A stretch of 64,000 nucleotides of DNA from a bacterium (lineage in GTDB: Bacteria > Pseudomonadota > Alphaproteobacteria > Rhodobacterales > Rhodobacteraceae): assembly GCA_016124195.1 (NCBI GenBank), contig WGOE01000004.1:248001-312000 (forward strand), read 5' to 3'. A program made the position numbers and the translations under genes. Of this stretch, positions 36,437 through 60,116 are shown piece after piece. Under the pieces are notes generated by a model that saw nothing but the letters and a program-made list of their open reading frames with translations, had not been told where the DNA came from and did no database searches. Positions within the stretch are counted from its first letter, which is position 1. The number at the start of each line of letters is the position of its first letter.

Positions 36437-37785
36437 CACATCGCCTCTGCCAGACGTGCCATCACGGCGGCAAAGCGGCGGCGCACGGGCAGGCGCGCCA
36501 CATGCTGGCCGTCCCGGACAATGTGGCGCCCGGCCGACCACAGGTGCCGGACCAGCCGGTCATCGCCGGCAAAGGCGAAACTGTCGAGCAACCGATCGCC
36601 GTTTCGCCCGGCCAGATCCGGCCCCGAAATGTCAAGCGCCACCAGATCGGCCCATTTGCCGACCGCGATCGCGCCGGTATCGCGCCCCGCCGCCTGGGCG
36701 CCGCCCTGGACCATGCCATCGAAGATCACCCGCCCGACCGAGCGGTCAGCGGTGGCCAAGACCGCGCGGGCCTTCGTGCCAAGCCGTTGAGAATATTCCA
36801 GGATCCTGATCTCTTCGGACAGCGAGATCCGCACGTTGCTGTCCGACCCGATGCCAAAGCGCCCGCCCGCCGCCAGATAGCGCGCGCCGTCAAAGATGCC
36901 GTCGCCGAGGTTCGCCTCGGTGATCGGGCAAAGACCGGCCACAGCCTGCGAGGCGGCAAGGGCCAGCGTCTCTTGCGGCGTCATCTGCGTGGCATGGATC
37001 AGGCACCAGCGTTGATCGACCGGGACATGCGACAAGAGCCAATCCACCGGCCTCTGCCGGGTATGAGCCAAAAGCTCATCCACTTCAGCCACTTGCTCGG
37101 CGACATGAATGTGAAGCGGCCCCTGCGGGCGCAAGGTTGCGGCCCGGGCAAGGCTTTCTGGCGACACCGCGCGCAGCGAATGCGGCGCAAGTCCCAGGGT
37201 GGCATCTGCGGGCAAGGCCGCCAGATGGGTCTCGGCAGCCTCGACCAGACGGGCAAAGCCGTTCATGTCATTGCCGAAGCGCAACTGCCCGCCGGCGAGG
37301 GCGCGCCCGTCGCACCCGCCGCGCTCGTAAAGCACCGGGAGCAGCGTCAGCCCCAGTCCTGTGGTCGCGGCGGCCTGCACGATCCGCGCCGACATCTCGG
37401 CCGGATCAGCGTAGGTCTTTCCGCCAAGTCCATGATGCAGATAGTGAAATTCGGCCACGGCGGCATAGCCGGCCTCGGCCATTTCGACCATGACCTGAGC
37501 CGCGATGGCCTCGACATCCTCGGGCGTAAGGCGTTCCAGAAAGCGGTACATCAGGTTGCGCCAGGTCCAGAAACTGTCCTGACCGGCGGTGCGATATTCG
37601 GTCAGCCCTGCCATGGCGCGCTGAAAGCTGTGCGAATGCAGGTTGACCGGCGCCGGCAGCAGACAACCGACAGAGGTCCCCGTGCCCCCTCGCGTCACCG
37701 CGGCGATCCGCCCTTCGGCGATTTCAACCGTCACATCCCGCGCCCAGCCATCCGGCAATAGGGCATGATCGGCGTGCAGGCGCAT
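36436..37785 (-). CDS. hutF: formimidoylglutamate deiminase
   Basis: Amidohydrolase of 449 residues that releases ammonia from N-formimino-L-glutamate to give N-formyl-L-glutamate. The metal site starts with NLHSHSFQRAMAG (His-x-His), then HIHVAEQ and CLIHATQM, and FGIGSDSN carries the late Asp. AAGGAG precedes the ATG at 37785. It runs divergently from hutI. The next enzyme of this route, HutG, is not in the window. Confidence 0.93.
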   Translation of the reverse strand: MRLHADHALLPDGWARDVTVEIAEGRIAAVTRGGTGTSVGCLLPAPVNLHSHSFQRAMAGLTEYRTAGQDSFWTWRNLMYRFLERLTPEDVEAIAAQVMVEMAEAGYAAVAEFHYLHHGLGGKTYADPAEMSARIVQAAATTGLGLTLLPVLYERGGCDGRALAGGQLRFGNDMNGFARLVEAAETHLAALPADATLGLAPHSLRAVSPESLARAATLRPQGPLHIHVAEQVAEVDELLAHTRQRPVDWLLSHVPVDQRWCLIHATQMTPQETLALAASQAVAGLCPITEANLGDGIFDGARYLAAGGRFGIGSDSNVRISLSEEIRILEYSQRLGTKARAVLATADRSVGRVIFDGMVQGGAQAAGRDTGAIAVGKWADLVALDISGPDLAGRNGDRLLDSFAFAGDDRLVRHLWSAGRHIVRDGQHVARLPVRRRFAAVMARLAEAM

Positions 37786-37794
37786 GGCAACTCC

Positions 37795-37841
37795 TTGACA
37801 GGTGTATATGTGCAGACATAATAGGCATATACGCAGACATA
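37795..37841. promoter_or_regulatory. divergent hut promoter with two HutC-like operators
   Basis: TATGTGCAGACATA (37807-37820) and TATACGCAGACATA (37828-37841) lie exactly 21 bases apart. Rightwards, TTGACA (37795-37800), 16 bases and CATAAT make a strong promoter for hutI, with the first site in its spacer and -10. Leftwards, TTGCCT, 18 bases and TATTAT can serve hutF. A dimeric GntR-type repressor bound here would block both. Confidence 0.75.
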
Positions 37842-37852
37842 AGGCAAGACCG

Positions 37853-39052
37853 ATGCCGATTCTCCTTCGCAACGCGACACTGGCCACCATGGCGCAGGGC
37901 TATGGCCTGATCCGGAATGCCGCCCTGGTGACCGAAGGCGACAGGATCGCCTTTGCCGGACCCGAGGCGGACCTGCCGCAGGTCTATGCCGGTCTGCCCG
38001 CGCGGGACATGGACGGCGCCCTCGTCACGCCGGCGCTGATCGACTGCCACACGCACATTGTCTTTGGCGGCGACCGTGCCAAGGAATTCGAGATGCGGCT
38101 GAACGGCGCCAGCTATGAAGAGGTGGCGCGGGCCGGGGGCGGCATCCTGTCGACCGTGCGCGCCACCCGCGCCGCCTCGAACTCCGCACTTCTGGCCCAG
38201 GCGCTGGCCCGCGCCGACCAGATCATCGCTGGCGGCGCCGCTGTGATCGAGGTCAAGTCGGGCTACGGCCTGACCGTCGCGGACGAGTTGAAGATGCTTC
38301 GTGTCGCCCGGCGGATCGGGGTCGAACGCGGCGTACGGGTCAAGGTCACCCATCTTGCCGCCCATGCCATTCCACCGGAATATGTAGGCCGGGCAGGGGC
38401 TTACATCGACGAAATCGCCATCCCCTCTCTGCGCCTCGCCGTGGCCGAAGGGCTGGTCGATGCGGTGGACGCCTTTTGCGAGGGCATCGCCTTTCAACCG
38501 GCCGAGGTCGAGCGGCTGTTTCTGGCCGCCCGCGACCTTGGCATCCCGGTCAAGCTGCATGCCGAACAATTGTCTGACCTGAAGGGCGCGGTCCTCGCCG
38601 CCCGCTACATGGCGCTTTCGGCGGATCACCTGGAATATCTGGGGCCCGACGGGGTCGCGGCGCTGGCGCAGTCGGGCAGTGTCGCGGTCATCCTGCCCGG
38701 CGCCTTCTATACCTTGCGCGAACGTCAGATGCCGCCGATTGCGGACTTGCGCGCGGCGGGCGTGCCGATGGCCGTGGCGACCGATTGCAACCCCGGTTCC
38801 TCGCCCATGACCTCGTTGACGCTGGCGATGAACATGGCCTGCACCTTCTTCCGCCTGACCCCGCTGGAGGCGTTGCAGGGCACCACGATCCACGCCGCCC
38901 GTGCCTTGGGGATGGACGATTGCGGCGTGATCGCCGCGGGCAAGCGGGCAGATCTTTGCGTGTGGGACGCCCGGCATCCCGCTGAACTTTCATACAGAAT
39001 TGCCGCGACGCCCCTGCGTGCGCGCATCTTTGGAGGCCATCTTGACGCCTGA
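37853..39052 (+). CDS. hutI: imidazolonepropionase
   Basis: Opens imidazolone-5-propionate to formiminoglutamate. 399 residues, amidohydrolase fold: metal His pair in [36 protein letters not shown] and the late Asp in [10 protein letters not shown]. The ATG at 37853 is twelve bases after the second operator palindrome and has only a weak ribosome site (AAGGCAAG). It is followed by hutH with an 11-base overlap. Confidence 0.95.
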
Positions 39053-40595
39053 GACCCCGATCCCCGCGGAAGTGCTGATCCCCGGGAAAACCACGCTTTC
39101 CCAGTTGGAGCGGCTCTACCGCGCCGAGGCGCCGGCCGTCCTGCACGGCTCTGCCCGCGCCGGGGTCGACTGGGCCGCGGCCCGCATTGCCGAGGCAGCA
39201 GCCGGCACCGTCGCGGTTTATGGCGTGAACACGGGTTTCGGCAAATTGGCCAGCCTGAAGATCGCCCCGCAAGATACGGCAACCCTTCAAAGAAACCTGA
39301 TCCTGTCGCATTGCTGCGGCGTGGGCGACCCGATGCCGCGGCCCGTGGTGCGGCTGATGATGGCGCTGAAACTTCTGTCGCTCGGGCGTGGGGCCTCGGG
39401 GGTGCGCTGGGAGGTCGTGGCGCTCATCGAGGGTATGCTGGCCCAAGGCGTCACCCCGGTGATCCCGGCGCAGGGTTCGGTCGGGGCCAGCGGTGACCTC
39501 GCACCCCTGGCGCATATGGCGGCCGTGATGATTGGCGCGGCCGAGGCCGAACATGAGGGCATCGTGAAGACAGGCGCGCAAGCGCTTGCCGACGCAGGAC
39601 TTTCACCCGTTGTCCTTGGCCCCAAGGAAGGCCTCGCCCTGATCAACGGCACGCAGTTTTCCACGGCCTATGCCCTTGTGGGCCTGTTCGGCGCCTGGCG
39701 TGCAGCGCAGAACGCGCTCGTCACCTCGGCCCTGTCGACCGATGCGATCATGGGCTCGACCGCGCCGCTGGAACCGCAGATCCATGACCTGCGCGGCCAT
39801 CCCGGCCAGATTGAGGCGGCGGCCAGCCTGCGCGCCCTGCTGGACGGGTCCGAGATCCGCGAAAGCCACCGCGAGGGCGACACCCGCGTTCAGGACCCCT
39901 ATTGCATTCGCTGCCAGCCTCAGGTCACCGGCGCCGCGATGGACATCCTGCGCCAGGCGGCCCGCACGCTGGAGATCGAGGCCAATGCCGCCACCGACAA
40001 CCCGCTGGTCCTCGCCAATGGCCAGATCGTATCCGGTGGCAACTTTCACGCGGAACCCGTTGGTTTTGCAGCCGATATGATCGCCATGGCCGTCAGCGAG
40101 ATCGGTGCCATTGCCCAGCGGCGCGTGGCGCTGATGGTCGATCCGGTTCTCAGCTTCGATCTGCCGGCCTTTCTGACGCCGCGCCCGGGCCTCAACTCAG
40201 GCCTCATGATCGCCGAGGTGACAACCGCCGCCTTGATGAGCGAAAACAAGCATCTGGCCCATCCGACTGTGATCGACAGCACGCCGACCTCCGCCAACCA
40301 GGAGGATCACGTCTCGATGGCGGCCCATGGCGCACGCCGCCTTGGCCGGATGATCGACAACCTCAACGTCATCCTCGGGGTCGAGGCGATCACTGCCGCG
40401 CAGGGGATCGAGTTCCGGGCGCCCTTGCAGACCTCTGCCCCCCTGAGCCGCGTCGTGGCCCGCCTGCGCCGGGACGTGGCGCAACTGGACGACGATCGCT
40501 ACATGGCCCCCGATCTGGCCATGGCCGCCCGCTTGGTGGCCTCCGGCGCCCTGACCGAGGCCGCCGCACTCTCCCTGCCATTCATCTGTTCGTAA
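39042..40595 (+). CDS. hutH: histidine ammonia-lyase
   Basis: Removes ammonia from histidine to give urocanate. 517 residues with the Ala-Ser-Gly that self-cyclises to the MIO group in [15 protein letters not shown], and [20 protein letters not shown] chose a TTG start at 39042 because GGAGG sits five bases ahead inside the end of hutI; no ATG fits the family length. The last four codons and the TAA (PFICS end) lie inside a family A repeat, so the native C-terminus may have been replaced. Confidence 0.94.
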
Positions 40596-40633
40596 ATATC
40601 CCACGGGGGTCCGGGGGTGTGAAGCCCCCGGCC
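40581..40633. repeat. family A repeat overlapping the hutH stop
   Basis: TTCATCTGTTCGTAAATATC followed by CCACGGGGGTCCGGGGGTGT and GAAGCCCCCGGCC, with a CGGGGGTGTGAAGCCCCCG hairpin. The TAA of hutH is at bases 13-15 of the element. It separates hutH from hutU by 58 bases. Confidence 0.85.
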
Positions 40634-40653
40634 GCCTGCCAAGAGGAGCCGCC

Positions 40654-42333
40654 ATGACCCGCCACAACACCCGCGACATCTTTCCCGCCACCGGCACCGA
40701 ACTCAGCGCCAAATCCTGGCTGACCGAGGCGCCCCTGCGCATGCTGATGAACAACCTCCACCCTGATGTTGCTGAAAACCCTCATGAATTGGTGGTCTAC
40801 GGCGGCATAGGCCGCGCCGCCCGCACCTGGGAGGATTTCGACCGCATCTGCGCCGCCCTGCGCGACCTCGAGGCCGACGAGACGCTGCTGATCCAGTCGG
40901 GCAAGCCGGTGGCCATCGTCCGGACCCATGCCGATGCCCCGCGCGTCCTGATCGCCAATTCCAACCTCGTGCCGCATTGGGCCACCTGGCAGCATTTCAA
41001 CGAGCTGGACCGGAAGGGCCTGATGATGTACGGTCAGATGACGGCCGGTTCCTGGATTTACATTGGAACTCAAGGTATTGTGCAAGGAACCTATGAAACC
41101 TTCGCCGAAGCGGGCCGCCAGCATTACGACGGCAACCTCAAGGGCCGCTGGATCCTGACCGGCGGTCTGGGCGGCATGGGCGGCGCCCAGCCCCTCGCGG
41201 CGGTCTTCGCCGGCGCCTGCTGCCTTGCGGTCGAGGTCGACGAGACCCGCATCGATTTCCGCATCCGTACAAAATATCTCGATGCCAAGGCGAAGACGCT
41301 TGACGAAGCCCTTGAGATGATTGCCAAATGGACGGCCGCGGGCGAGGCGAAATCCGTGGGCCTCCTCGGCAATGCCGCCGAGGTTTTTCCCGAAATCTAC
41401 CGCCGCATGCAGGCCGGCGGGATGCGGCCCGACATCGTCACCGACCAGACCTCCGCCCATGACCCGCTGCATGGCTATTGCCCGGCCGGCTGGACCCCGG
41501 CCGAATGGCGCGCCCGGCAGGAGGCGGACCCCGAAGCGGTGCAGAAAGCCGCCCGCGCCTCGATGCGCGCCCATGTCGCGGCCATGGTCGATTTCTGGAA
41601 CGCCGGCGTGCCGACGCTCGACTATGGCAACAACATCCGCCAGGTGGCCCAGGACGAGGGGTTGGAGAACGCCTTCGCCTTCCCCGGCTTCGTCCCCGCC
41701 TATATCCGCCCGCTGTTCTGCAAGGGCATCGGTCCGTTCCGCTGGGTGGCCCTGTCGGGCGACCCGGAGGATATCGCCAAGACCGACGCAGCGATGAAGA
41801 AACTCTTCCCGGAAAACAAGCACCTGCACCGCTGGCTTGACATGGCGTCTGAACGGATCGCCTTCCAGGGCCTGCCCGCCCGTATCTGCTGGATCGGCCT
41901 TGGCGACCGGCACCGCGCGGGCCTGATGTTCAACGAGATGGTGGCGCGGGGCGAACTCAAGGCCCCGATCGTGATCGGCCGCGACCACCTCGACGCAGGT
42001 TCGGTCGCCAGCCCCAACCGCGAGACCGAGGCGATGAAAGACGGATCCGACGCCGTCTCGGATTGGCCGCTCCTCAACGCGCTGGTCAACACGGCTTCGG
42101 GCGCCACCTGGGTGAGCCTGCATCACGGCGGCGGTGTCGGCATGGGCTTCAGCCAGCACGCCGGCGTCGTCATCGTGGCCGACGGCACGCCCGAAGCCGC
42201 CAAGCGGCTGGAGCGCGTCCTGTGGAACGACCCGGCCTCCGGCGTCTGGCGCCACGCCGATGCGGGCTACGACAGCGCGATCCAGTGCGCGAGGGACCAT
42301 GGCCTCCGCCTGCCGGGCATCCTTGGCAACTGA
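40654..42333 (+). CDS. hutU: urocanate hydratase
   Basis: NAD-containing enzyme of 559 residues that hydrates urocanate to imidazolonepropionate. Motifs include the N-terminal [32 protein letters not shown] (NAD site), [12 protein letters not shown] and [25 protein letters not shown] precedes the ATG. It is the last gene of hutI-hutH-hutU, behind a repeat that may lower its expression. Confidence 0.96.
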
Positions 42334-42423: not shown

Positions 42424-43278
42424 CTAGATCCGCCCGGCCAACTCGCGCGCCACGATCCGCGTCAGCTTGCGGTGCAGCGGCGTGATGCGGTCGCGCAGGT
42501 GCAGCGCGGCATAGACCGGCTGGCGCAGCGCCGGCGCATCGGCGACCCGGCGGAACCGCGCCCCCGCCACCAGATCGGCCGCGGTCTTTTCCAGGACATA
42601 TCCCGCCCCGCCCGACGCCATCAGCAGCGAGACGACCGAGGCGCTTTGTCCGACCGAGACCGCGGCTCCGGCCAGTTCCGGCGTCAGCTGCCGGTGCATC
42701 TCTTGAAAAGCCGGCGAGAAATGGCCGAAGACAAAGCTTTCGACCCGCACCAGATCCATCCGGTCCGCCTCGGTCGAGATCATCGAATAGGTCACCTCGC
42801 CCACGCTTTCGAAATGGAGGTCCGGATGCGGCTTGGGCGAGAACATGACCGCGAAATCCAGCGTCCCGGTCAGCACATCCATGCACATCTGGTTGGAATA
42901 ATCCGGCTCGATGTAAAAGGCGGTGTCGGGCAGGGCGCGGCGAAAGCCTGCGACCCAGTCGCCGAGATAGAGCGCTGAAAGGTCGTTCTGGATGCCGATC
43001 CGCACCAGATGGGCCGCGCGTTGCGGCACGAGGATGCGGCGCTTGGCCTGGTTCCATTCATGGCGCAGCGCGCGGGCATGGGGTTCAAAGCGCTTGCCCT
43101 CGATCGTGGGTTCGGTCCCTGACCGGGACCGCACGAACAGGGGCGCTTCGACCGCCGTCTCCAGCGCCTGGATCCGGGCAGAGACGGTGGATTGGGTGAT
43201 CCGCAGACGCTCGGCCGTGCGGTGAAAGCTGCGCGTCTCGATCAGGTCGAGAAAGGTGTCGATAAGCTCGATCTGCAT
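42424..43278 (-). CDS. LysR-family transcriptional regulator
   Basis: 284 residues. The N-terminal winged helix has TRSFHRTAERLRITQSTVSA and RIQALETAVEAPLFVRS; the rest is the inducer-binding domain. It is transcribed away from the adjacent operon of N-demethylase genes, with 101 bases between the starts. That is the usual position of a LysR activator and its targets. A perfect ATC-N9-GAT palindrome lies in the gap. The inducer is presumably the operon's substrate. Confidence 0.9.
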   Translation of the reverse strand: MQIELIDTFLDLIETRSFHRTAERLRITQSTVSARIQALETAVEAPLFVRSRSGTEPTIEGKRFEPHARALRHEWNQAKRRILVPQRAAHLVRIGIQNDLSALYLGDWVAGFRRALPDTAFYIEPDYSNQMCMDVLTGTLDFAVMFSPKPHPDLHFESVGEVTYSMISTEADRMDLVRVESFVFGHFSPAFQEMHRQLTPELAGAAVSVGQSASVVSLLMASGGAGYVLEKTAADLVAGARFRRVADAPALRQPVYAALHLRDRITPLHRKLTRIVARELAGRI

Positions 43279-43286
43279 GGCGCCTC

Positions 43287-43305
43287 TGATCGGGTTTTCC
43301 GATCA
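43287..43305. promoter_or_regulatory. LysR-type operator
   Basis: TGATCGGGTTTTCCGATCA: perfect 7-bp arms, containing ATC-N9-GAT, a form of the T-N11-A box used by LysR regulators. It is nine bases from the LysR start and 75 from the operon start. Confidence 0.7.
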
Positions 43306-43379
43306 ATAGCGCGGCCAGAGGCGAATTGAAAGCGATGCGGCCTCGGCAGATACTCTGCGCGACTGCAAGGGAGTGCGAC

Positions 43380-45821
43380 ATGGCTGAATTTCCGACAACC
43401 GCCCGCGTTGTGATCATTGGCGGCGGTGCCGTTGGGGCCTCGTCGCTCTATCACCTGTGCAAGGCGGGCTGGACCGATTGCGTTCTTCTGGAAAAGAACG
43501 AGCTGACGGCGGGGTCGACCTGGCATGCGGCGGGCAATGTGCCGACGTTCTCTTCGTCCTGGTCGATCATGAACATGCAGCGCTATTCGGCGAGCCTTTA
43601 CCGCGGTCTTGGCGCCGAGGTCGATTACCCGATGAACTACCATGTCACGGGCTCGGTCCGGCTTGGCCACACGAAAGAGCGGCTGCAGGAGTTTCGCCGG
43701 GTGGTCGGCATGGGGCGCTATCAGGGCATGGACCTGGAGATCATGGCGCCCGACGATATTTCTGCGAAATATCCCTTCCTGGCCACGCATGACCTGACCG
43801 GGGCGCTCTATGACCCCTATGACGGCGACATCGACCCGGCCCAGCTGACCCAGGCGTTGGCCAAGGGTGCGCGGCAGATGGGGGCGCGGATCGAACGGTT
43901 CTGCCCCGCGACCGGCGTGCGGCGCGAGGGCGATGAATGGGTCGTCTCGACCCCCAAGGGCGAGATCCGCTGCGAGATCGTGGTCAATGCCGCCGGCTAC
44001 TACGCCCGCGAGGTCGGCAAGTGGTTCGGCCGCGACCTGCCGATGATGGTGATGAGCCACCAGTACATGCTGTTCGACACGATCCCGGAACTGGAAAGCT
44101 GGTCGAAAGAGGTCGGCCACAAGCTGCCCCTGCTGCGCGATGTGGACAGCAGCTATTACCTGCGGCAGGAAAAGAATGGCTTCAACCTCGGCCCCTATGA
44201 GAGCAACTGCCGGGCGCATTGGACAACACCCGACGATCCTTTCCCGCAGGATTTCAGCTTCCAGCTTTTCCCCGACGATCTGGAACGGCTGGAGTGGCAC
44301 ATCGGCGATGCCATGGCCCGCGTGCCCCTGCTGGAGAAGGCTGCGCTGACCAAGGTGATCAATGGCCCGATCCCCTATACGCCCGACGGCAACCCCCTGA
44401 TCGGGCCGATGCCCGGCGTGCCCAATGCCTTCGAGGCCTGCGTCTTTACCTTCGGCATCTGTCAGGCCGGCGGGGCGGGCAAGGTCCTGGCCGAATGGGT
44501 GACCGAGGGCGCCACCGAATGGGACATGTGGTCTTGCGATCCGCGCCGCTTCACCGGGTTCGAGGATCCGGACTATTGCGTGAAGAAGGGGATGGAGGTC
44601 TATGGCCACGAATATGCCATCCAGTTCCCGCACCACGCCTGGCCCGAAGGCCGCGACAAGAAGCTGAGCGCCGTTCATGGCCGGACTAAGGCGCTGGGTG
44701 CCGTCTATGCCCCCTATAACGGCTGGGAGCGCGCAGTCTGGTATGCCCGGCCGGGCGACGATGTCTCGGAGGCGGCACAACAGACCTGGGACCGGCAGGG
44801 CCCCTGGTTTGGCGCGGTCAAGGCCGAATGCGAGGCGGTGCGCGACGCGGCGGGCATCCTCGACCTTCCAGGCTTTTCGCGCTTCCTGATCAGCGGTGAG
44901 GGCACGGCCGATTGGCTGAGCCGGCAGATCACCGGCAAGCTGCCCTCGGTCGGGCGGCTGGGGCTGGCCTATTTCGCCGATGACAAGGGGCGCATCGTCA
45001 CCGAGATGTCAGTGGCGCGGCTGGGCGAGGACCAAGTCCTGCTGATCACCGCCGCCACCGCGCAAAGCCATGACAGGGAATGGCTGCGGCGGCATCTGGC
45101 GCCCGGGCTGAGCCTGACGGATGTAACCGACCGCTGGTCGTGCCAGATCCTGACCGGCCCGAAGAGCCGCGCCGTTCTGGCGGCGGTGTCGGACGCCGAT
45201 CTGGCCAAGGGCTGGCTGACCTTTCAGAAGGCGCGGATCGCGGGGGTGGAGGTCTATCTCTTCCGCGTCAGCTTTGCCGGCGAACTCGGTTGGGAGATCC
45301 ACACGCCGGTGGCCGAGACGGCGCGGGTCTGGGATGCGGTGATGGCGGCGGGGGCGCCCCTGGGGCTGAAACCCTTCGGTATGTTCGCGCTGAACGCCCT
45401 GCGCATCGAAAAGGGCTACCGGGCGTGGAAGGGCGATTTATCCACCGATTACACGGTCTTGCAGGGCGGTCTTGAGCGCTTTGTCGATTGGACCAAGCCC
45501 GAGTTCCGCGGCAGGGCGGCGCTTGAGGCGGAAAAGCAGCAGGGTGTGACCAAGCGGTTCTGCACCCTGGTCATCGAGGCCGGCGAGCAGGACCCGCACT
45601 ATATGTCGACGATCTGGGCCGGAGACGAGGTCGTGGGCGAGTTGACCTCGGGCTATTACGGCCACCGGGTGGGCGCCTGCATCGGGCTTGGCATGCTCAA
45701 GGCAGAGGTGAATGTGCCGGGGCGGGCGGTCGAGGTGGAAATCTTCGGGAAGCGCTATCCGGCGGTGGTGCAGGCGGATCAGCCGCTTTGGGACCCAAGG
45801 AACGAGCGCATCCGCGCGTGA
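43380..45821 (+). CDS. FAD/GcvT-type N-methyl amino acid dehydrogenase (dimethylglycine/sarcosine dehydrogenase family), copy 1
   Basis: 813 residues. The N-terminal FAD domain has VVIIGGGAVGASSLYHL and the GSTWHAAGN motif, whose His49 is at the place of the covalent flavin link in DMGDH. After a short linker come GcvT domains that bind tetrahydrofolate and take the methyl group as methylene-THF (SRFLISGEGTADWLSRQ, SFAGELGWEIHTP, FGMFALNALRIEKGYRAW). GGGAG precedes the ATG. It is the first gene of the operon facing the LysR gene. The natural substrate is unknown. Confidence 0.88.
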   Translation: MAEFPTTARVVIIGGGAVGASSLYHLCKAGWTDCVLLEKNELTAGSTWHAAGNVPTFSSSWSIMNMQRYSASLYRGLGAEVDYPMNYHVTGSVRLGHTKERLQEFRRVVGMGRYQGMDLEIMAPDDISAKYPFLATHDLTGALYDPYDGDIDPAQLTQALAKGARQMGARIERFCPATGVRREGDEWVVSTPKGEIRCEIVVNAAGYYAREVGKWFGRDLPMMVMSHQYMLFDTIPELESWSKEVGHKLPLLRDVDSSYYLRQEKNGFNLGPYESNCRAHWTTPDDPFPQDFSFQLFPDDLERLEWHIGDAMARVPLLEKAALTKVINGPIPYTPDGNPLIGPMPGVPNAFEACVFTFGICQAGGAGKVLAEWVTEGATEWDMWSCDPRRFTGFEDPDYCVKKGMEVYGHEYAIQFPHHAWPEGRDKKLSAVHGRTKALGAVYAPYNGWERAVWYARPGDDVSEAAQQTWDRQGPWFGAVKAECEAVRDAAGILDLPGFSRFLISGEGTADWLSRQITGKLPSVGRLGLAYFADDKGRIVTEMSVARLGEDQVLLITAATAQSHDREWLRRHLAPGLSLTDVTDRWSCQILTGPKSRAVLAAVSDADLAKGWLTFQKARIAGVEVYLFRVSFAGELGWEIHTPVAETARVWDAVMAAGAPLGLKPFGMFALNALRIEKGYRAWKGDLSTDYTVLQGGLERFVDWTKPEFRGRAALEAEKQQGVTKRFCTLVIEAGEQDPHYMSTIWAGDEVVGELTSGYYGHRVGACIGLGMLKAEVNVPGRAVEVEIFGKRYPAVVQADQPLWDPRNERIRA
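43755..43773. repeat. family C hairpin inside a coding region
   Basis: GATATTTCTGCGAAATATC: 7-bp stem around the loop CTGCG, the same plan as the intergenic hairpins at 13292 and 53507. It encodes DISAKY in the oxidoreductase with AT-rich codons (ATT, TCT, AAA, TAT) that are unusual here. Confidence 0.6.
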
Positions 45822-45832
45822 CGGGCGGAGGA

Positions 45833-45879
45833 CCGGGGGCCAGCCCCCGGACCCCCGGGATATTTTTGAACAGATGAAA
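45833..45879. repeat. family A repeat, reverse orientation, inside the operon
   Basis: CCGGGGGCCAGCCCCCGG hairpin, then ACCCCCGGGATATTTTTGAA and CAGATGAAA. It fills nearly the whole gap between the two oxidoreductase genes. The loop (CCA) differs from the GTGTGAA type. Confidence 0.8.
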
Positions 45880-45890
45880 AGGGTTGCGGG

Positions 45891-48326
45891 ATGGAAATTC
45901 CGGCACAGGCGCGGGCGGTGGTGATTGGCGGCGGGGTCTCGGGCTGTTCGGTGGCCTATCATCTGGCAAAGATGGGGTGGACGGATGTCGTTCTATTGGA
46001 GCGCAAGCAGCTGACGAGCGGGACGACCTGGCATGCGGCGGGGCTGATCGGGCAGTTGCGCGGCTCGGCCAACATGACGCGGCTGGCCAAGTATTCGGCC
46101 GATCTTTACGTGAAGCTGGAGGCCGAGACCGGGGTTGCCACGGGGATGCGGCAGGTGGGGTCGATTTCGGTCGCGTTGACTGCGGCGCGGCGCGAGGAAT
46201 TGCTGCGGCAAGCCACGGTGGCGCGGATTTTCGACGTGGATGTCACCGAGATTTCTGCAAGCGATGTCAAAGCGATGTATCCGCATCTTAATGTATCGGA
46301 CGTGGTGGGGGCGGTGCATCTGCCGCTCGACGGGCAATGCGATCCGGCCAATATCGCCATGGCGCTGGCCAAGGGCGCGCGGATGCGGGGCGCGCAGATC
46401 TTCGAACATACCAAGGTGGTGGGCGTCACCAAAGCCGAGGGCCGGGTGACGGGGGTCGATTACATCGATGCCGATGGCCAGCCGGGCCATATCGCCGCCG
46501 ATGTCGTGGTGAACTGCGGCGGCATGTGGGGGCGCGATCTGGCCGGGCAATCGGGCGTCACGCTGCCGCTGCATGCCTGCGAGCATTTCTACCTGATCAC
46601 CGAGCCGGTGCCGGGTCTCGGCCATCTGCCCGTTTTGCGGGTGCCCGATGAATGCGCCTATTACAAGTCTGATGCCGGCAAGATGATGATCGGCGCCTTC
46701 GAGCCCAAGGCCAAGCCCTGGGGCATGGATGGCATCCGTGAGGACTTCATGTTCGACACGTTGCCCGAGGATTGGGACCATTTCCAACCGATCCTTGAGG
46801 CCGCGATGGAGCGCATGCCGTTGTTCCAGACCGCGGGCATCCATACCTTCTTCAACGGGCCGGAGAGTTTCACCCCCGACGACCGCTATTACCTTGGCGA
46901 GGCGCCGGAACTGGGCGGCTATTGGGTGGCGGCTGGCTATAACTCGGTGGGCATTGCCGGGTCGGGCGGCGCGGGTATGGCGCTGGCGCATTGGATCGTC
47001 GAGGGCGAGGCGCCGTTTGATCTGTGGGAGGTCGATATCCGCCGGGCACAGCCCTTTCAGAAGAACCGCAAGTATTTGAAAGAGCGGGTTTCCGAGACCT
47101 TGGGCCTGCTTTACGCCGACCACTTTCCCTATCGGCAGATGGCGACCTCGCGCGGGGTGCGGCGCTCGCCCCTGCACGAACATCTGAAGGCGCGGGGCGC
47201 GGTCTTTGGCGAAGTGGCGGGCTGGGAGCGGGCGAACTGGTTCGCGAGGCCGGGACAAGAGCGCGAATATGCCTATTCCTGGGGCCGGCAGAACTGGTTC
47301 GACAATCAGCGCGCCGAGCATATGGCGGTCAGGACCGGGGTTGGCCTGTTCGACATGACCTCGTTCGGCAAGATCCGGATCGAGGGACGTGACGCTTGCG
47401 CCTTTCTGAACCGGCTATGCGGCAACGAGATGGATGTGCCTGCGGGCCGCATCGTCTATACCCAGATGCTGAACGCGCGGGGTGGCATCGAAAGCGATCT
47501 GACGGTGACGCGGCTGAGCGAGACGGCCTATCTGGCGGTCGTGCCCGGGGCGACCTTGCAGCGCGATCTGGCCTGGCTGCGCCGGCATCTGGGCGAGGCC
47601 TTTGTGGTCATCACCGATGTGACGGCGGCGGAATCGGTGCTGTGCGTCATGGGGCCGAAGGCGCGCGACCTGATGCAGAAAGTCTCGCCCAACGACTTCA
47701 GCAACGCGGCACATCCCTTTGGTACGGCGCGGGAAATCGAGATCGGCATGGGCCTCGCCCGGGCGCATCGGGTCACCTACGTGGGCGAACTGGGCTGGGA
47801 GCTTTACGTCAGCGCCGACCAGACCGCCCATGTCTTCGAGGCGCTGGAAGAGGCGGGGATGCTGACGCTCTGCGGGCTGCACACGCTGGACAGCTGCCGG
47901 ATCGAGAAGGCCTATCGCCACTTTGGCCATGACATCACCGACGAGGATCACGTGCTGGAGGCCGGGCTCGGCTTTGCCGTGCGCACGAAGAAGCCCGATT
48001 TCATCGGGCGCGATGCGGTCTTGCGCAAGCGGGATGCGGGGTTGAGCCGGCGCATGGTGCAGTTCCGCCTGGCCGACCCGGAGCCCTTGCTGTTTCACAA
48101 CGAGGCGATCGTGCGGGATGGCAAGATTGTCGGGCCAGTGACCTCGGGCAACTATGGGCATTTCCTCGGCGGGGCGATCGGGATGGGCTATGTGCCCTGC
48201 GAAGGCCAGTCGGAGGAAGAGGTGCTGGGCTCGACCTATGAGATCGAGGTGGCGGGCGTGCGCCACGCGGCGGTGGCGAGCCTTGCGCCGATGTATGACC
48301 CCAAGGCGGAACGTGTGCGGATCTAG
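45891..48326 (+). CDS. FAD/GcvT-type N-methyl amino acid dehydrogenase, copy 2
   Basis: 811 residues with the same plan as copy 1: FAD domain VVIGGGVSGCSVAYHLA, covalent-flavin His48 in GTTWHAAGL, then GcvT domains (VGLFDMTSFGKIRIEGRD, VTYVGELGWELYVS, LHTLDSCRIEKAYRHFGHD). The two proteins are related but clearly diverged, so they probably remove methyl groups from different intermediates. The ATG follows AAAAGGGTTGCGGG; an ATG 15 bases before it is out of frame. Confidence 0.88.
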   Translation: MEIPAQARAVVIGGGVSGCSVAYHLAKMGWTDVVLLERKQLTSGTTWHAAGLIGQLRGSANMTRLAKYSADLYVKLEAETGVATGMRQVGSISVALTAARREELLRQATVARIFDVDVTEISASDVKAMYPHLNVSDVVGAVHLPLDGQCDPANIAMALAKGARMRGAQIFEHTKVVGVTKAEGRVTGVDYIDADGQPGHIAADVVVNCGGMWGRDLAGQSGVTLPLHACEHFYLITEPVPGLGHLPVLRVPDECAYYKSDAGKMMIGAFEPKAKPWGMDGIREDFMFDTLPEDWDHFQPILEAAMERMPLFQTAGIHTFFNGPESFTPDDRYYLGEAPELGGYWVAAGYNSVGIAGSGGAGMALAHWIVEGEAPFDLWEVDIRRAQPFQKNRKYLKERVSETLGLLYADHFPYRQMATSRGVRRSPLHEHLKARGAVFGEVAGWERANWFARPGQEREYAYSWGRQNWFDNQRAEHMAVRTGVGLFDMTSFGKIRIEGRDACAFLNRLCGNEMDVPAGRIVYTQMLNARGGIESDLTVTRLSETAYLAVVPGATLQRDLAWLRRHLGEAFVVITDVTAAESVLCVMGPKARDLMQKVSPNDFSNAAHPFGTAREIEIGMGLARAHRVTYVGELGWELYVSADQTAHVFEALEEAGMLTLCGLHTLDSCRIEKAYRHFGHDITDEDHVLEAGLGFAVRTKKPDFIGRDAVLRKRDAGLSRRMVQFRLADPEPLLFHNEAIVRDGKIVGPVTSGNYGHFLGGAIGMGYVPCEGQSEEEVLGSTYEIEVAGVRHAAVASLAPMYDPKAERVRI

Positions 48327-48333
48327 GGCGAAG

Positions 48334-48380
48334 GCGGGGGCCAGCCCCCGCACCCCCGGGATATATATGAACAAATGAAA
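48334..48380. repeat. family A repeat, reverse orientation, inside the operon
   Basis: CGGGGGCCAGCCCCCG hairpin, then CACCCCCGGGATATATATGA and ACAAATGAAA. It ends with an ATG that is in frame with the next gene, 15 bases ahead of the start I prefer. Confidence 0.8.
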
Positions 48381-48389
48381 GGGTTTGCG

Positions 48390-49949
48390 ATGAGCGATCT
48401 TGGAGAAGTTTGCGAACCGGCGCGGGCCCGGAGCGGCCGGTCGGGTGGACGTTCGGCGCGGGTGGCCTTGCGGGCTGCCCCCTTGGCGGACGATGTGCGT
48501 CCGGTGCGGGGCGGGCTGCCGGGTGGCACCTACAAACCCCTGACCGAGGCGGGGATGGCCAAGATCCATGCTTCGGCCCTTGAGGCGCTGGAGGTGATCG
48601 GCCTGTCGAACGCTCCGGCCTCGGGGGTGGAGATCCTGACCGGGGCGGGCGCCATTCAGGGCGACGACGGCCGCATCCGCTTTCCGCGCGCGCTGGTCGA
48701 GGACATGCTGGCCGTGGCCGGGCGCAACATCACGCTGCATGCCCGCGATCCCAAGCTTGACCTGCATCTGTCGGGCACCAATGTGCATTTCGGCACGGCG
48801 GGGGCGGCGGTCCATATCGTCGATCCGATCACGCTCGACTATCGCGACTCGACGGCGCAGGACCTGTATGACGCGGCACGGCTGGTCGACAACCTGGACA
48901 ACATTCACTTCTACCAGCGCACCATGGTCTGCCGCGATGTGGTCGACAACATCGACATGGACCTCAACACGCTTTACGCCTGCCTTGCCGGTACGAAAAA
49001 GCATGTGGGCACCAGCTTTTTCGAGCCGGGCGCGGTGGCGCCGGCCTTTGACATCCTGCATCAGGTGGCGGGGGGCGAGGACAAGTGGCTCGAGCGGCCC
49101 TTTGTCAGCAATTCCAACTGTTTCGTCGTGCCTCCGATGAAATTCGCCGAGGAATCCTGCAGGGTTATGGAGGATTGCATCCGGCGCGGCATGCCGATGC
49201 TGCTGTTGTCGGCGGGGCAGGCCGGGGCGACAGCGCCGGCGCCGATTGCGCTGGCCATCGTGCAGGCCATGGCGGAGTGTCTGGCCGGGGTGGTCTATGT
49301 CAACGCCATCAAGAAGGGCGCGCCGGCGATCTTTGGCACCTGGCCCTTCGTCAGTGACCTGCGCACCGGCGCCATGTCGGGCGGCAGCGCGGAACAGGCC
49401 CTGCTGACGGCGGGCTGTGCGCAGATGCACCGCTTCTACGATCTGCCGGGGGGTGCCGCCTCTGGCATCAGCGACTCGAAGCTGCCCGACATGCAGGCCG
49501 GATGGGAACAGGGCATCACCAACACGCTGGCCGGGCTCGCCGGGCTCAACATGTGCTACGAGGCGGTGGGGATGCATGCCTCGCTCCTTGGGTTCTGTCT
49601 GGAAAGCCTGATCCTCGGCGACGACCTGCTGGGTCAGGCCATGCGCTGCGTGCGGGGGATCGAGGTGAACGAGGACACCACCAGCATCGATGCGATGAAG
49701 CAGGTCTGTCTGGGCGGGCCGGGGCATTATCTGGGCAGCGATCAGACGCTCAAGCTGATGCAGACCGAATATATCTATCCCAAGACCGCCAACCGGATGA
49801 GCCCGAAGGAATGGAACGAGGCCGGCAAGCCCTTGTTGCTTGACGGCGCCATTCGGCGCAAGAATGAGATTCTGTCCAGGGCAGGCTGCGTCGTCGATGC
49901 CGAGATCGATCGCGCCATCCGCGCCAAGTACAAAATCCACTTCAAGTGA
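48390..49949 (+). CDS. MttB-family (trimethylamine methyltransferase-like) methyltransferase, no pyrrolysine
   Basis: 519 residues of the MttB superfamily, in which a methyl group moves from a quaternary amine to a corrinoid protein. Recognisable parts are YKPLTEAGMAKIHASALEAL, the central barrel around GTSFFEPGAVAPAFDIL and the C-terminal GAIRRKNEILSRAGC. There is no in-frame TAG, so it belongs to the non-pyrrolysine branch that includes glycine betaine and carnitine methyltransferases. No corrinoid protein is adjacent. The start has AAAGGG before it; the repeat upstream offers an ATG that would add five residues. Confidence 0.85.
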   Translation: MSDLGEVCEPARARSGRSGGRSARVALRAAPLADDVRPVRGGLPGGTYKPLTEAGMAKIHASALEALEVIGLSNAPASGVEILTGAGAIQGDDGRIRFPRALVEDMLAVAGRNITLHARDPKLDLHLSGTNVHFGTAGAAVHIVDPITLDYRDSTAQDLYDAARLVDNLDNIHFYQRTMVCRDVVDNIDMDLNTLYACLAGTKKHVGTSFFEPGAVAPAFDILHQVAGGEDKWLERPFVSNSNCFVVPPMKFAEESCRVMEDCIRRGMPMLLLSAGQAGATAPAPIALAIVQAMAECLAGVVYVNAIKKGAPAIFGTWPFVSDLRTGAMSGGSAEQALLTAGCAQMHRFYDLPGGAASGISDSKLPDMQAGWEQGITNTLAGLAGLNMCYEAVGMHASLLGFCLESLILGDDLLGQAMRCVRGIEVNEDTTSIDAMKQVCLGGPGHYLGSDQTLKLMQTEYIYPKTANRMSPKEWNEAGKPLLLDGAIRRKNEILSRAGCVVDAEIDRAIRAKYKIHFK

Positions 49950-49956
49950 GGCCGCC

Positions 49957-51387
49957 ATGGTCCCGGCACATATGGAAAAATTCTACATTGCCGGGGCCTG
50001 GGCCGAACCGAATTCCGCCATGCGGATGGCGGTAGAGAACCCCGCCACCGAAGAGGTCGTGGCCAAGGTGGCCCTTGGCAATCTGGCCGATGCCGATGCC
50101 GCCGTCGCGGCCGCCCGGGCCGCCTTTGCCGATTGGTCGGCACGGCCCGTGGCCGACCGCATCGCCGTGCTCAAACGCATCCTTGAAGTCTATAACGACC
50201 AATACGAGGAATTCGCCCAGGTGATGAGCACCGAAATGGGCGCCCCGATCGAATGGGCGCGCTCGGCCCAGGCCTGGGCGGGCCAGGTGCATATCGAAAG
50301 CACGATCCGCGCGGCTGAGACGATGGCCTGGGAGCATATGCGCGGCACAACCCGCATCGTGCACGAAGGCATCGGTGTCTGCGCCCTGATCACGCCGTGG
50401 AACTGGCCGATGAACCAGATCGCCTGCAAGGTGGCTCCGGCGCTGGTGGCGGGCTGTACCATGGTGCTGAAACCGTCCGAGATCGCGCCCATGTCCGGGG
50501 TGCTCTTTGCCCATGTCTGCCATCACGCGGGGGTGCCGCCGGGGGTCTTCAACCTCGTCAACGGCACGGGGGCCGAGGTCGGTGCCCGGTTGGCCTCGCA
50601 TCCCGATGTGGACATGGTCTCTTTCACCGGGTCGACCCGCGCGGGCGTGCTGGTTGCCGCCGCCGCGGCCCCCACGGTCAAGCGGGTGGCGCAGGAACTG
50701 GGCGGCAAATCGCCCAACATCATTCTGGCCAGCGCCGATCTGGCCGAGGCAGTCAAGGCCGGGGTCGAGGCCTGTTTTGCCAACACCGGGCAAAGCTGCG
50801 ATGCGCCCACCCGCATGTTCGTGCCGCGTGACAGCCACGAGGCGGCGCTGAGCCATGCGGCCGCTGTGGCTGCGGCAGTGGTGGTGGGCGATCCGGCCGA
50901 CAGCGAAACCACGATGGGACCGCTGATCTCCAAGGCGCAGCACGACAAGGTCCAGCGCCTGATCCGGACCGCCATCGACGAGGGCGCGCGACTGGTCGCG
51001 GGTGGTCCGGGCCGGCCCGAGGGGCTCAACCACGGTTGGTACGTGCGCCCGACCGTCTTTGGCGCCGTCACACCCGACATGACCATCGCGCGCGAAGAGA
51101 TCTTCGGCCCCGTGCTGGCGATCCTGCCCTATGACAGCGTCGATCACGCGGTCGAGATGGCCAATGATACGCCCTATGGCCTGGCCGCCTATATCTCGGG
51201 CGCGCTGAACGAGGCGCGGCCCCTGGCTCGCCGGCTGCGTGCGGGGACGGTCAACCTGAACTATCCGGCCTGGGACACCTTTGCCCCGTTCGGTGGCTAC
51301 AAACAGTCCGGCAACGGGCGCGAATATGCCGATTGGGGCATCCATGATTTCTGCGAAGTGAAAGGCATCGTCGGGTGGGGAGAATGA
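49957..51387 (+). CDS. NAD-dependent aldehyde dehydrogenase
   Basis: 476 residues. Active-site Glu247 is in QELGGKSPN and Cys281 in NTGQSCDAPT; the NAD motif FTGSTRAG and the fold mark ITPWNWPMNQIACKVAPAL are present. It starts seven bases after the MttB-type gene stop and overlaps the next gene by ATGA. It probably oxidises an aldehyde made when the carbon skeleton is released by the demethylases (inference). Confidence 0.93.
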   Translation: MVPAHMEKFYIAGAWAEPNSAMRMAVENPATEEVVAKVALGNLADADAAVAAARAAFADWSARPVADRIAVLKRILEVYNDQYEEFAQVMSTEMGAPIEWARSAQAWAGQVHIESTIRAAETMAWEHMRGTTRIVHEGIGVCALITPWNWPMNQIACKVAPALVAGCTMVLKPSEIAPMSGVLFAHVCHHAGVPPGVFNLVNGTGAEVGARLASHPDVDMVSFTGSTRAGVLVAAAAAPTVKRVAQELGGKSPNIILASADLAEAVKAGVEACFANTGQSCDAPTRMFVPRDSHEAALSHAAAVAAAVVVGDPADSETTMGPLISKAQHDKVQRLIRTAIDEGARLVAGGPGRPEGLNHGWYVRPTVFGAVTPDMTIAREEIFGPVLAILPYDSVDHAVEMANDTPYGLAAYISGALNEARPLARRLRAGTVNLNYPAWDTFAPFGGYKQSGNGREYADWGIHDFCEVKGIVGWGE

Positions 51388-52283
51388 AATACGGATATAT
51401 CGGCCTCGGCAATCTGGGCGGCAATCTTGCGGCCAGCCTGATCCGGGCGGGGCATGAGGTGACGGTCTATGACCGCAACCCGGACCTGGGGGCGCGGCAT
51501 GCGGCGATGGGGGCCAGGGTCGCGGCTTCTCCGGCGGAACTGGCGGCCGAGGTGGACCATGTCTTCACCTGCCTGCCTTCGCCCGCGGTGACCGAGGTCG
51601 TGCTGTTCCAGATCCTGGAAAAGATGAAGCCCGGCGCGACCTGGATCGAGAATTCGACCCTGGGGCGCGAGGATGTGCTGCGGCTGGCGGGCCTGGCCCG
51701 GGGCAGCGGCGTGCGCATGCTGGAGGCTCCGGTGACGGGCGGCGTGCACCTTGCCGCGCGGGGCGAGATCACCGTTCTGGTTGGCGGCGAACAGGACCTC
51801 TTCGACCTGCACCGCACGGCCCTCGAGGCGATCGGCGGCAAGATTTTCCACATGGGGCCCCTGGGGTCTGCGGCTGTCATCAAGGTCATCACCAACATGC
51901 TGGCCTTCATCCATCTGGTGGCCGATGGCGAGGCGCTGATGCTGGCCAAGCGCGGCGGCCTTGACCTGAAGACCGCTTGGGAGGCGATCACGGCCTCGTC
52001 CGGCACCTCTTTCGTGCATGAAACCGAAGGCCAACTGATCCTGAACGGCAGCTATGACATTGCCTTCACGATGGATCTGGCGCTGAAGGACCTGGGCTTT
52101 GCCATGGGCTTCGGCCGCGAATATGGCGTGCCGCTCGACCTCGCAAGCCAGACCCTGCAGACCTTCATGAAGGGCAAGGCCGTCTATGGCGGGCAGGCGC
52201 AATCCACCCAGATCGTGAAGCTTCTGGAGGATGCCCTGAACACCGACCTGCGCGCCGAAGGCTTCCCCGCGCGGCTCGAGTGA
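51384..52283 (+). CDS. 3-hydroxyisobutyrate dehydrogenase family NAD(P) oxidoreductase
   Basis: 299 residues of the beta-hydroxyacid dehydrogenase family. Nucleotide loop YIGLGNLGGNLA (GxGxxG), the substrate motif APVTGGVHLAARGEITVLVG, and the catalytic Lys167 with Asn171 in VIKVITNML. The start overlaps the aldehyde dehydrogenase stop, so the two work in succession, for example hydroxy acid to semialdehyde to acid. Confidence 0.9.
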   Translation: MKYGYIGLGNLGGNLAASLIRAGHEVTVYDRNPDLGARHAAMGARVAASPAELAAEVDHVFTCLPSPAVTEVVLFQILEKMKPGATWIENSTLGREDVLRLAGLARGSGVRMLEAPVTGGVHLAARGEITVLVGGEQDLFDLHRTALEAIGGKIFHMGPLGSAAVIKVITNMLAFIHLVADGEALMLAKRGGLDLKTAWEAITASSGTSFVHETEGQLILNGSYDIAFTMDLALKDLGFAMGFGREYGVPLDLASQTLQTFMKGKAVYGGQAQSTQIVKLLEDALNTDLRAEGFPARLE

Positions 52284-52340
52284 TTTCATCTGTTTGCAAA
52301 TATCCCACAGGGGGTCCGGGGGGTGTGAAACCCCCCGGCC
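52284..52340. repeat. family A repeat after the dehydrogenase gene
   Basis: TTTCATCTGTTTGCAAATAT followed by CCCACAGGGGGTCCGGGGGG and TGTGAAACCCCCCGGCC, with a CGGGGGGTGTGAAACCCCCC hairpin. It begins at the base after the TGA. Confidence 0.85.
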
Positions 52341-52361
52341 ATTCAGAACAAGGCACCTCAA

Positions 52362-53474
52362 ATGACTGCTGACCGCCGCTTTGCCGACATGCTGCATCAC
52401 CGGGCCGAGCGTCTGGGACGCGGCGATCCGGTGGCACCGCCCCTGATCTCGGCCACCACCTTCCATCTGCCCGGGCTTGAGAATGCCGCCTACAAATACG
52501 GCCGGATGGCGATGCCGACCTGGGAAGAGGTCGAAGAGCAGCTGGCCATTCTGGAAGGCGCCACCGTGGTGGGCTTCCCCTCGGGCATGGCCGCGATCGC
52601 GGCGGCGCTGATGTGCACGCTATCGGCCGGTCAGACCGTGATCCTGCCGGCCGACGGCTATTATACGACGCGTCTTCTGGCCGACAGGTTCCTGGCGCCT
52701 CTGGGCGTCAAGATCAGACTGATCGACACGAAGGACGTGGATTCCGCCGACTTTACTGGGGCTTCCGTGGTGTTTCTCGAAACACCCTCGAACCCCGGCC
52801 TTGATTGCTGTGACATCTCTTTGGCCGCACGCAAGGCCCATGCGGCGGGTGCCAGGCTCATCGTGGACAACACGACGATGACGGCCCTCTTGCAGCGCCC
52901 GCTTGATCTGGGCGCCGATCTGGTGGTGGCGGCCGATACCAAGGCGCCGGCGGGGCACTCCGACGTGCTTTACGGCCATGTTTCGGGTCGCGATGCGGCG
53001 CTGATGGCCCGCATCGCCGAATGGCGCAAATTGTCGGGCGCGGTGCCGGGCGCCTTCGAGGCATGGCTCTTGCACCGCGGGCTGGAAACGCTGGAGGTGC
53101 GGCTGGCACGCATGTGCGCCTCGGCCGGGATCCTTGCGGAACGGCTCTCCTCCCACCCCCGCATCAAGGCGCTGCGCTATCCGGGCCTGCCCTCCGACCC
53201 CGCGCATGCCATCGCAAGGCGGCAGATGCAGGGCTTCGGGTTTCTCATGAGCTTCGAGCTTGAAAGCGAGGAAAAGGCAGAGGAATTCCTGACGCGCTCT
53301 GCCTATGTGACCCAGACCACCTCTTTTGGCGGCACCCATTCGGCGGGCGAACGGCGGGCGCGTTGGGGCGATGCGGTGGCCCCGGGCTTCATCCGATTTT
53401 CCGTCGGGGTCGAACCGGTGGAGCCCTTGTGGGATGCCATCGAACAGGCGCTGAAACCGCATGCCAAAGGATAA
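52362..53474 (+). CDS. cystathionine gamma-lyase family PLP enzyme
   Basis: Cys/Met-metabolism PLP enzyme of 370 residues. The PLP lysine is Lys194 in AADTKAPAGHSDVLYG, the aspartate that pairs with the ring is in LIVDNTTMT, and LETPSNPGLD and SFGGTHSAGERRAR are family marks. Members act on gamma- or beta-substituted amino acids such as cystathionine, homocysteine or methionine. Its place at the end of the N-demethylase cluster suggests a role there, for example in sulfur or methyl-acceptor balance, but the activity is open. Confidence 0.88.
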   Translation: MTADRRFADMLHHRAERLGRGDPVAPPLISATTFHLPGLENAAYKYGRMAMPTWEEVEEQLAILEGATVVGFPSGMAAIAAALMCTLSAGQTVILPADGYYTTRLLADRFLAPLGVKIRLIDTKDVDSADFTGASVVFLETPSNPGLDCCDISLAARKAHAAGARLIVDNTTMTALLQRPLDLGADLVVAADTKAPAGHSDVLYGHVSGRDAALMARIAEWRKLSGAVPGAFEAWLLHRGLETLEVRLARMCASAGILAERLSSHPRIKALRYPGLPSDPAHAIARRQMQGFGFLMSFELESEEKAEEFLTRSAYVTQTTSFGGTHSAGERRARWGDAVAPGFIRFSVGVEPVEPLWDAIEQALKPHAKG

Positions 53475-57711: not shown

Positions 57712-57958
57712 GCAATCCTCTGTTGGCGTCGTTGTTGGTGCGCCTCGGGGACGCGTGTTTTCCACCCCGGCGGGCCAACCGGGCGTTTGATAGGCCTTCA
57801 TATACGGCAGACCTGCCCAAAGGAAAAGCATCTGATCGCCGGGGCCCGAATTCTTCACTGCGGTAGAAATTTACCGTTTGATAAAAAAGACGACCTGTGC
57901 CAGCCTGATCGAAAGAAATCCGTCGCCAAAGACGGCACAATCAGCCGGGGAGGCTGCC

Positions 57959-59239: not shown

Positions 59240-59265
59240 CTCACCGATCCGGAGGAATCGCGTCA

Positions 59266-60096: not shown

Positions 60097-60116
60097 TCCG
60101 CGCCAAGGAGACGCAT

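Follow-up and report, generated by a model that had tools for sequence, protein, structure and literature searches.

A cluster of seven genes at positions 42424-53474 of a 64,000-nucleotide stretch of a Rhodobacteraceae genome (assembly GCA_016124195.1, contig WGOE01000004.1, positions 248,001 to 312,000; hereafter the window) is probably a LysR-controlled operon that converts glycine betaine (GBT), a common salt-protecting compound, to glycine. Pfam and NCBIfam profile searches confirmed the coordinates and families that a sequence-only reading had given for the seven genes, and with them its description of a same-strand run facing a LysR gene:

42424..43278, minus strand: LysR-family regulator, divergent from the operon (Pfam HTH_1 and LysR_substrate)
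43380..45821, plus strand: dmgA, FAD/tetrahydrofolate (THF) demethylase of the dimethylglycine dehydrogenase (DMGDH) type, 813 aa (DAO, FAO_M, GCV_T and GCV_T_C); likely SPO3400 ortholog by synteny
45891..48326, plus strand: dmgB, FAD/THF demethylase of the DMGDH/sarcosine dehydrogenase (SarDH) type, 811 aa (DAO, FAO_M, GCV_T and GCV_T_C); likely SPO3396 ortholog by synteny
48375..49949, plus strand: mttB, non-pyrrolysine corrinoid methyltransferase of the MttB family, 524 aa (PF06253, 347 bits); likely SPO2134 (MtgB2) ortholog
49957..51387, plus strand: aldehyde dehydrogenase (ALDH; Aldedh, 500 bits), with an inferred start codon
51375..52283, plus strand: hydroxyacid dehydrogenase of the HIBADH family (NAD_binding_2 and NAD_binding_11)
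52362..53474, plus strand: cystathionine gamma-lyase-like pyridoxal phosphate enzyme (Cys_Met_Meta_PP; PRK07582, 511.6 bits against a cut-off of 440)

The plus-strand genes are tightly packed, with gaps of 69, 48 and 7 bp, then an overlap and then 78 bp, and the 101-bp intergenic gap between lysR and dmgA separates genes that face away from each other. Both DmgA and DmgB have the DAO, FAO_M, GCV_T and GCV_T_C architecture of dimethylglycine and sarcosine dehydrogenases and align to dimethylglycine dehydrogenase 5l46 (561 and 445 bits, respectively), suggesting that they act on dimethylglycine or sarcosine. The 524-codon reading frame of mttB is uninterrupted (no in-frame TAG), and its product belongs to PF06253, as expected of an MtgB. 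The best NCBIfam family of the ALDH is BADH, but below its cut-off (413 versus 669). Family profile searches detected no Rieske monooxygenase, carnitine dehydrogenase or ABC protein among the seven cluster proteins, in agreement with the sequence-only reading, whose proposal that an N-methylated compound is broken down by corrinoid and THF routes is likewise supported.

In the pathway that we propose, MttB, as an enzyme of the MtgB2 type, would move one methyl group from the quaternary amine GBT to a stand-alone MtgC encoded elsewhere in the genome, from which MtgD would hand it to THF. DmgA and DmgB would then oxidatively demethylate dimethylglycine and sarcosine, yielding methylene-THF from the second and third methyl groups, and glycine; the order of DmgA before DmgB is borrowed from the R. 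pomeroyi names. The presence of three demethylases would fit the three methyl groups of GBT.

The assignment to GBT draws on Ruegeria pomeroyi, in which SPO2108 and SPO2134, both PF06253 proteins, increase on N-osmolytes, with SPO2134 (MtgB2) reaching higher levels on glycine betaine, choline and carnitine (Mausz et al. 2025, PMC12478193). According to the available sections of the same study, MtgC (SPO2160) and MtgD (SPO1863) are required for growth on GBT, predicted dimethylglycine and sarcosine demethylation proteins (given there without locus tags) also increase on N-osmolytes, and no decision is made between the two GBT-responsive MtgB candidates (PMC12478193). We compared the window with congeners of R. 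pomeroyi; a scan with the R. pomeroyi plasmid MttB had returned 37 loci, DSS-3 not among them. Seven Ruegeria genomes encode a PF06253 protein (360-381 bits) at a distance of 26.3-27.5 kb from mtgC; in the single Leisingera genome the distance is 276 kb. Six of these eight were fetched (five Ruegeria and the Leisingera), and in all six the protein is an MttB of the window type (66-68% identity). The Ruegeria mttB fits SPO2134, whose locus tag is 26 away from that of mtgC (SPO2160). In addition, a protein of 176-192 aa, read as outer-membrane-like, adjoins mttB in three of the six Ruegeria and Leisingera loci, and SPO2133 is listed, in the part of the source available, as a 178-aa outer membrane protein (PMC9938194). 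The MtgB1 candidate, which is 78% identical to a host paralog (L123), lies 56 kb from mtgC in one genome (G252), fitting SPO2108 (52 tags); this match is weaker, as in each of the seven remaining genomes the counterpart, identified by bit score only, is separated from mtgC by more than 130 kb or sits on a different contig.

The two later demethylases could be matched in the same way. In the portions of the sources available, SPO3400 and SPO3396 are a predicted dimethylglycine dehydrogenase and a predicted sarcosine dehydrogenase (Lidbury et al. 2015, PMC4744692), while the annotation given for SPO3398 is homocysteine S-methyltransferase (PMC4809877). Eight fetched loci hold both dmgA and dmgB (L198-L202 and L204-L206), with a homocysteine S-methyltransferase gene between them in seven and none called in L204; since this order equals SPO3400-3398-3396, dmgA and dmgB were matched to SPO3400 and SPO3396. 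Several of the eight loci also have an AraC-type regulator between the two genes (for L198, the one tested, the best NCBIfam family is GbdR, below cut-off), and in five an ALDH 53-55% identical to that of the window adjoins the dmg genes. One of the eight (L206, from G025) comes from a genome without mttB at the survey cut-off. The window genes match these Ruegeria orthologs at 65-69% identity, but dmgA and dmgB are adjacent in the window, without a homocysteine S-methyltransferase gene or an AraC-type regulator between them. mttB, dmgA and dmgB are likely orthologs, judging by synteny with congeners, of the MtgB2, DMGDH and SarDH of R. pomeroyi GBT catabolism, a result at odds with the earlier statement that this set could not be matched to a described pathway. 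The cluster most likely belongs to the kind described in 2025, as a well-organised form of a known pathway and not a new one; among the PMC papers that literature searches listed, titles and displayed abstracts contained no description of the cluster itself.

Conservation was surveyed in 248 genomes of the family, roughly one per genus. A match to mttB at E ≤ 1e-120 was present in 142 genomes, of which 139 were kept as carrying an ortholog (E ≤ 3.1e-210, at least 63% identity) and three were dropped (G059, G119 and G160, with best E values of 8.1e-123, 4.8e-144 and 1.6e-134). We fetched 80 of the 139 loci, mostly at 16-18 kb each and shorter at contig ends, and counted neighbours at 45% identity or above; because some loci are truncated at the end of a contig or of the fetched segment, the counts are lower bounds. 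Near mttB were dmgA in 37 loci, dmgB in 37 and lysR in 27, followed by the HIBADH-family gene (19), a PEP-mutase-family gene (16), the ALDH gene (10), a homocysteine S-methyltransferase gene (9), the gamma-lyase-like gene (5) and bhc-type genes (3). Because dmgA, dmgB and lysR recur beside mttB in the fetched loci, the gene order is conserved and not a product of chance, and the search of related genomes that the sequence-only reading had proposed as its check speaks in its favour. The complete seven-gene set occurs in three of the 80 loci (L037, L040 and L041, the last with an extra PEP-mutase-family gene), and four further genomes of the genus have the seven genes plus an extra Zn-alcohol-dehydrogenase-type gene (L235-L238). 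Three Rhizobiaceae plasmids (L132, L133 and L138) also hold lysR-dmgA-dmgB-mttB; in L132, tblastn recovered dmgB as two pieces. On account of the neighbour counts and these plasmid loci, lysR-dmgA-dmgB-mttB is the conserved core, and the ALDH, HIBADH and gamma-lyase genes are additions to it. Of 14 loci taken from the genus plus one near relative (L041 and 13 more that were fetched), several are cut by contig ends and nine reach mttB; eight of the nine have the HIBADH gene, six the gamma-lyase gene and five the ALDH gene. Three of the 80 loci (L052, L055 and L076) have, at most a few kb from mttB, genes read as bhcR-A-B-C, of the beta-hydroxyaspartate cycle, which serves glycine/glyoxylate assimilation; we counted this for GBT.

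Co-occurrence across genomes points the same way. Orthologs of dmgA (E ≤ 1e-280) were found in 151 of the 248 genomes: 131 genomes have both genes, 8 only mttB, 20 only dmgA and 89 neither, such that dmgA is present in 131 of 139 genomes with mttB versus 20 of 109 without (Fisher odds ratio 73, p = 1.6e-37, shared ancestry uncorrected). A closer look at 32 chosen genomes, 20 with mttB and 12 without, at cut-offs of at least 62% identity for dmgA and at least 65% for dmgB, found dmgA in 20/20 versus 1/12 (G025) and dmgB in 20/20 versus 3/12 (G012, G015 and G025). mttB lies apart from the dmg genes in 19 of the 20 chosen mttB genomes and together with them in one (G243). We considered the neighbours of such solo mttB genes, cysS, cimA, nrdJ and an aminotransferase gene (named by reading, the aminotransferase also by family search), as pathway genes and rejected them; they appear instead to belong to a chromosomal block that is conserved in the Roseobacter group. 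One mttB ortholog (L020 1218-2753, the same as L060; G030 contig C88) has an in-frame TAG at codon 485 of 512 matched; near the C terminus, this codon was not taken to specify pyrrolysine.

The gap between lysR and dmgA contains a predicted operator and promoter:

43287..43305, plus strand: dyad TGATCGG-GTTTT-CCGATCA between lysR and dmgA, predicted LysR binding site
43326..43354, plus strand: sigma70-type promoter TTGAAA-17-GATACT, 22 nt after the ATCG-N7-CGAT dyad

In the window this gap holds CTGATCGGGTTTTCCGATCAATAG. Of 29 lysR-dmgA gaps, the window's among them and three of them rhizobial, 28 contain the ATCG-N7-CGAT dyad and one (L057) has it with a single mismatch. Spacing from the dyad to TTGAxx is 22 nt in 26 of the 28 gaps measured, and a loose -10 pattern 15-19 nt past TTGAxx was matched in 20 of the 29. 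A scan for the promoter consensus alone was weak and not above chance (3 sites in the region versus 1.7 expected). The exact pattern TRATCGNNNNNNNCGATYAATA occurs at one site in each of 21 of 81 genomes, with no site for a reversed control pattern; an exact-pattern search would miss genomes with a diverged dyad. Within the genus, 15 of 16 genomes have the exact dyad. Nineteen of the 21 exact sites lie between lysR and dmgA, the exceptions being L209, which has none of the genes, and L229, which has only a lysR relative. Thus distributed, the sites make the LysR look like a dedicated regulator with one target; we infer that it would bind the dyad upstream of the promoter and activate this single operon. 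At L229 (G026 contig C52), the lysR relative (51%) has the same dyad, with no dmgA adjoining, and lies near SDR- and alcohol dehydrogenase-like genes.

MtgC-like, DUF1638, S-methyltransferase and pterin-binding proteins are the expected partners of an MtgB enzyme, and the host genome encodes each of them. A 232-aa protein with B12-binding_2 and B12-binding domains, the stand-alone MtgC-like corrinoid protein of the host (best NCBIfam family MtgC, below cut-off at 189 versus 370), is encoded next to a DUF1638 gene, with an S-methyltransferase gene (MtgE-type protein) some 1.3 kb away. Besides a likely FolP, the host has a second Pterin_bind protein (a 331-codon frame), preceded by a gene read as MetF, which is a candidate MtgD. 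The host therefore resembles the R. pomeroyi MtgBCD(E) system, with a MttB that matches MtgB2 (SPO2134) by synteny and with MtgC-like, DUF1638 and MtgE-type proteins in the same genome; it differs in that the window mttB is clustered with the two later demethylases under a LysR, whereas the R. pomeroyi genes, in the sections available, are not colocated (PMC12478193). The host also has a second methylated-amine cluster (L127, contig C10, approximately 57-74 kb). It encodes two Rieske oxygenases that weakly resemble GbcA and a DMGDH-type protein with 45% identity to DmgB, together with a BetI-like TetR, a kinase-like protein and ABC-transporter components.

Several observations weigh against GBT as the MttB substrate. 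Chief among them is the distance of the window MttB from 2qne and the glycine betaine methyltransferase 9yce, both of which we take to be D. hafniense MtgB: it shares with them the MttB superfamily and the lack of pyrrolysine, but scores 177 bits against each, whereas a Ruegeria MtgB1-type protein scores 422 bits against 2qne and 420 against 9yce. The host genome encodes five MttB-family proteins, and its MtgB1-type paralog, not the window MttB, is of the 9yce/2qne kind; the window protein is only 26-28% identical to the other four, the MtgB1-type one included (around 27%). A phylogeny of 34 MttB-family proteins, for which the program gave long-branch warnings on own_L125, Rueg_L184a and Alis_L136, places the window MttB in a clade of 21 (100/100), together with solo genes from Ruegeria and Leisingera and with genes from S. 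meliloti and Shinella. This clade nests in a group of 28 that is split at 100/100 from six others, namely the host's other four paralogs, Ruegeria MtgB1 and Rueg_L184a; the window MttB is therefore outside the MtgB1-type subfamily of 9yce by both bit score (177 versus 420) and tree position. Eleven plasmid records yielded six further matches at 43-49% identity to MttB, none of them counted as an ortholog, and the four placed in the tree are all outside the window clade. The MtgB1 type is found in 224 of the 248 genomes, the host included (E ≤ 1e-210), and because of this breadth its presence cannot track dmgA. Moreover, higher abundance of SPO2134 on GBT does not prove its substrate, the available sections of Mausz et al. 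contain no knock-out of either MtgB (PMC12478193), and orthology to the SPO tags rests on synteny with congeners, not on the R. pomeroyi chromosome. The ALDH, HIBADH and gamma-lyase genes are unexplained by GBT alone; they may be lineage-specific additions, perhaps for glycine- or serine-derived C2-C3 or thiol metabolism.

One alternative is that MtgB1, so widespread and much nearer to the named glycine betaine methyltransferase, demethylates GBT, and that this MttB takes a second N-methylated compound that shares the DmgA and DmgB steps or is co-induced. We regard this as doubtful, given that dmgA or dmgB flanks this MttB in about half of the 80 loci (37 each), that mttB is co-inherited with dmgA, and that MtgB1 is without adjoining dmg genes in the host and one Ruegeria, the only neighbourhoods compared. 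It is very improbable that the operon degrades a sulfonium or N-methyl sulfur amino acid, in which case the gamma-lyase would catalyse the exit step. The gamma-lyase-like gene closes the cluster and is present in 6 of the 9 same-genus loci reaching mttB, but in only 5 of 80 across the family, and the core is conserved without it; the earlier suggestion of a sulfonium-like compound, which leaned on this gene, is correspondingly weak. Betaine-lipid head groups (homoserine betaine and others), brought to mind by the ALDH, HIBADH and gamma-lyase genes, were set aside on the same ground, the core being conserved without those genes.

A further candidate arises from the genes on the other side of lysR, which are probably not part of the operon:

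35756..42333, mixed strands: hut block with hutC and hutF on the minus strand (by Pfam) and hutI, hutH and hutU on the plus strand (by reading of translations)

The operon could strip three methyl groups off another trimethylammonium amino acid, of which hercynine (histidine betaine) is the best candidate in the genus, the resulting histidine feeding the hut genes. For this speak the hut genes that adjoin lysR in 5 of the 80 loci and are present in 11 of the 14 loci taken from the genus plus one near relative, in two orientations, as well as the distance of the window MttB from the known GBT methyltransferase and the MtgB1-type protein that the host already has for GBT. We nonetheless consider it unlikely. 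In the fetched flanks of the other 75 of the 80 loci, the core has no hut gene next to it apart from a hutH match of 33% in L074, and the flanks fetched for the three rhizobial loci likewise lack hut genes; the two hut layouts are consistent with a single block having inverted in one clade, and the likely R. pomeroyi orthologs are tied to growth on GBT. Hercynine was kept as a rival and not preferred because hut lies beside lysR only in the clade of the window. Among the literature matches listed, titles and abstract beginnings described no bacterial pathway of hercynine demethylation. Among species of the genus and related genera, the hut block stands by lysR in two opposite orientations, as if inverted as a unit. 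Elsewhere in the window, positions 57878-62938 hold a PreT-like gene (by reading) and genes for a dihydroorotate dehydrogenase-domain protein with a 4Fe-4S domain, a methyltransferase and a luciferase-like monooxygenase, a set that resembles reductive pyrimidine breakdown genes.

The R. pomeroyi DSS-3 megaplasmid (NC_006569.1) has a related run (L131 7953-18249) of LysR, MttB-family and class III aminotransferase genes, two DMGDH-type genes and a gene for a thiamine pyrophosphate (TPP) enzyme that among NCBIfam families matches sulfoacetaldehyde acetyltransferase best, though below cut-off. As in the window, LysR, MttB-family and two DMGDH-type genes stand in one run; unlike the window, it carries the aminotransferase and the Xsc-like TPP enzyme, and its MttB is 45% identical to that of the window. 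This run could serve a compound such as trimethyltaurine; the literature matches listed contained nothing on bacterial breakdown of trimethyltaurine-type compounds. A broader view, to which we give little credence, is that the MttB superclade comprises aerobic quaternary-amine demethylases with non-GBT substrates, each joined to DMGDH-type enzymes and a substrate-specific exit, for example hercynine to hut in the window and trimethyltaurine via the aminotransferase and Xsc-like enzyme on the R. pomeroyi plasmid.

New in the operon that we assign to GBT are its arrangement in one cluster, a likely operator and the connection that it draws between the divergent MtgB2 clade and the demethylases acting later. 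By placing MtgB2 with the steps predicted for dimethylglycine and sarcosine, and by offering a regulator and operator, the cluster makes the question of MtgB1 versus MtgB2 directly testable. With members in 139 of the 248 sampled genomes of the family, this MttB clade is a place to seek methylated-amine pathways.

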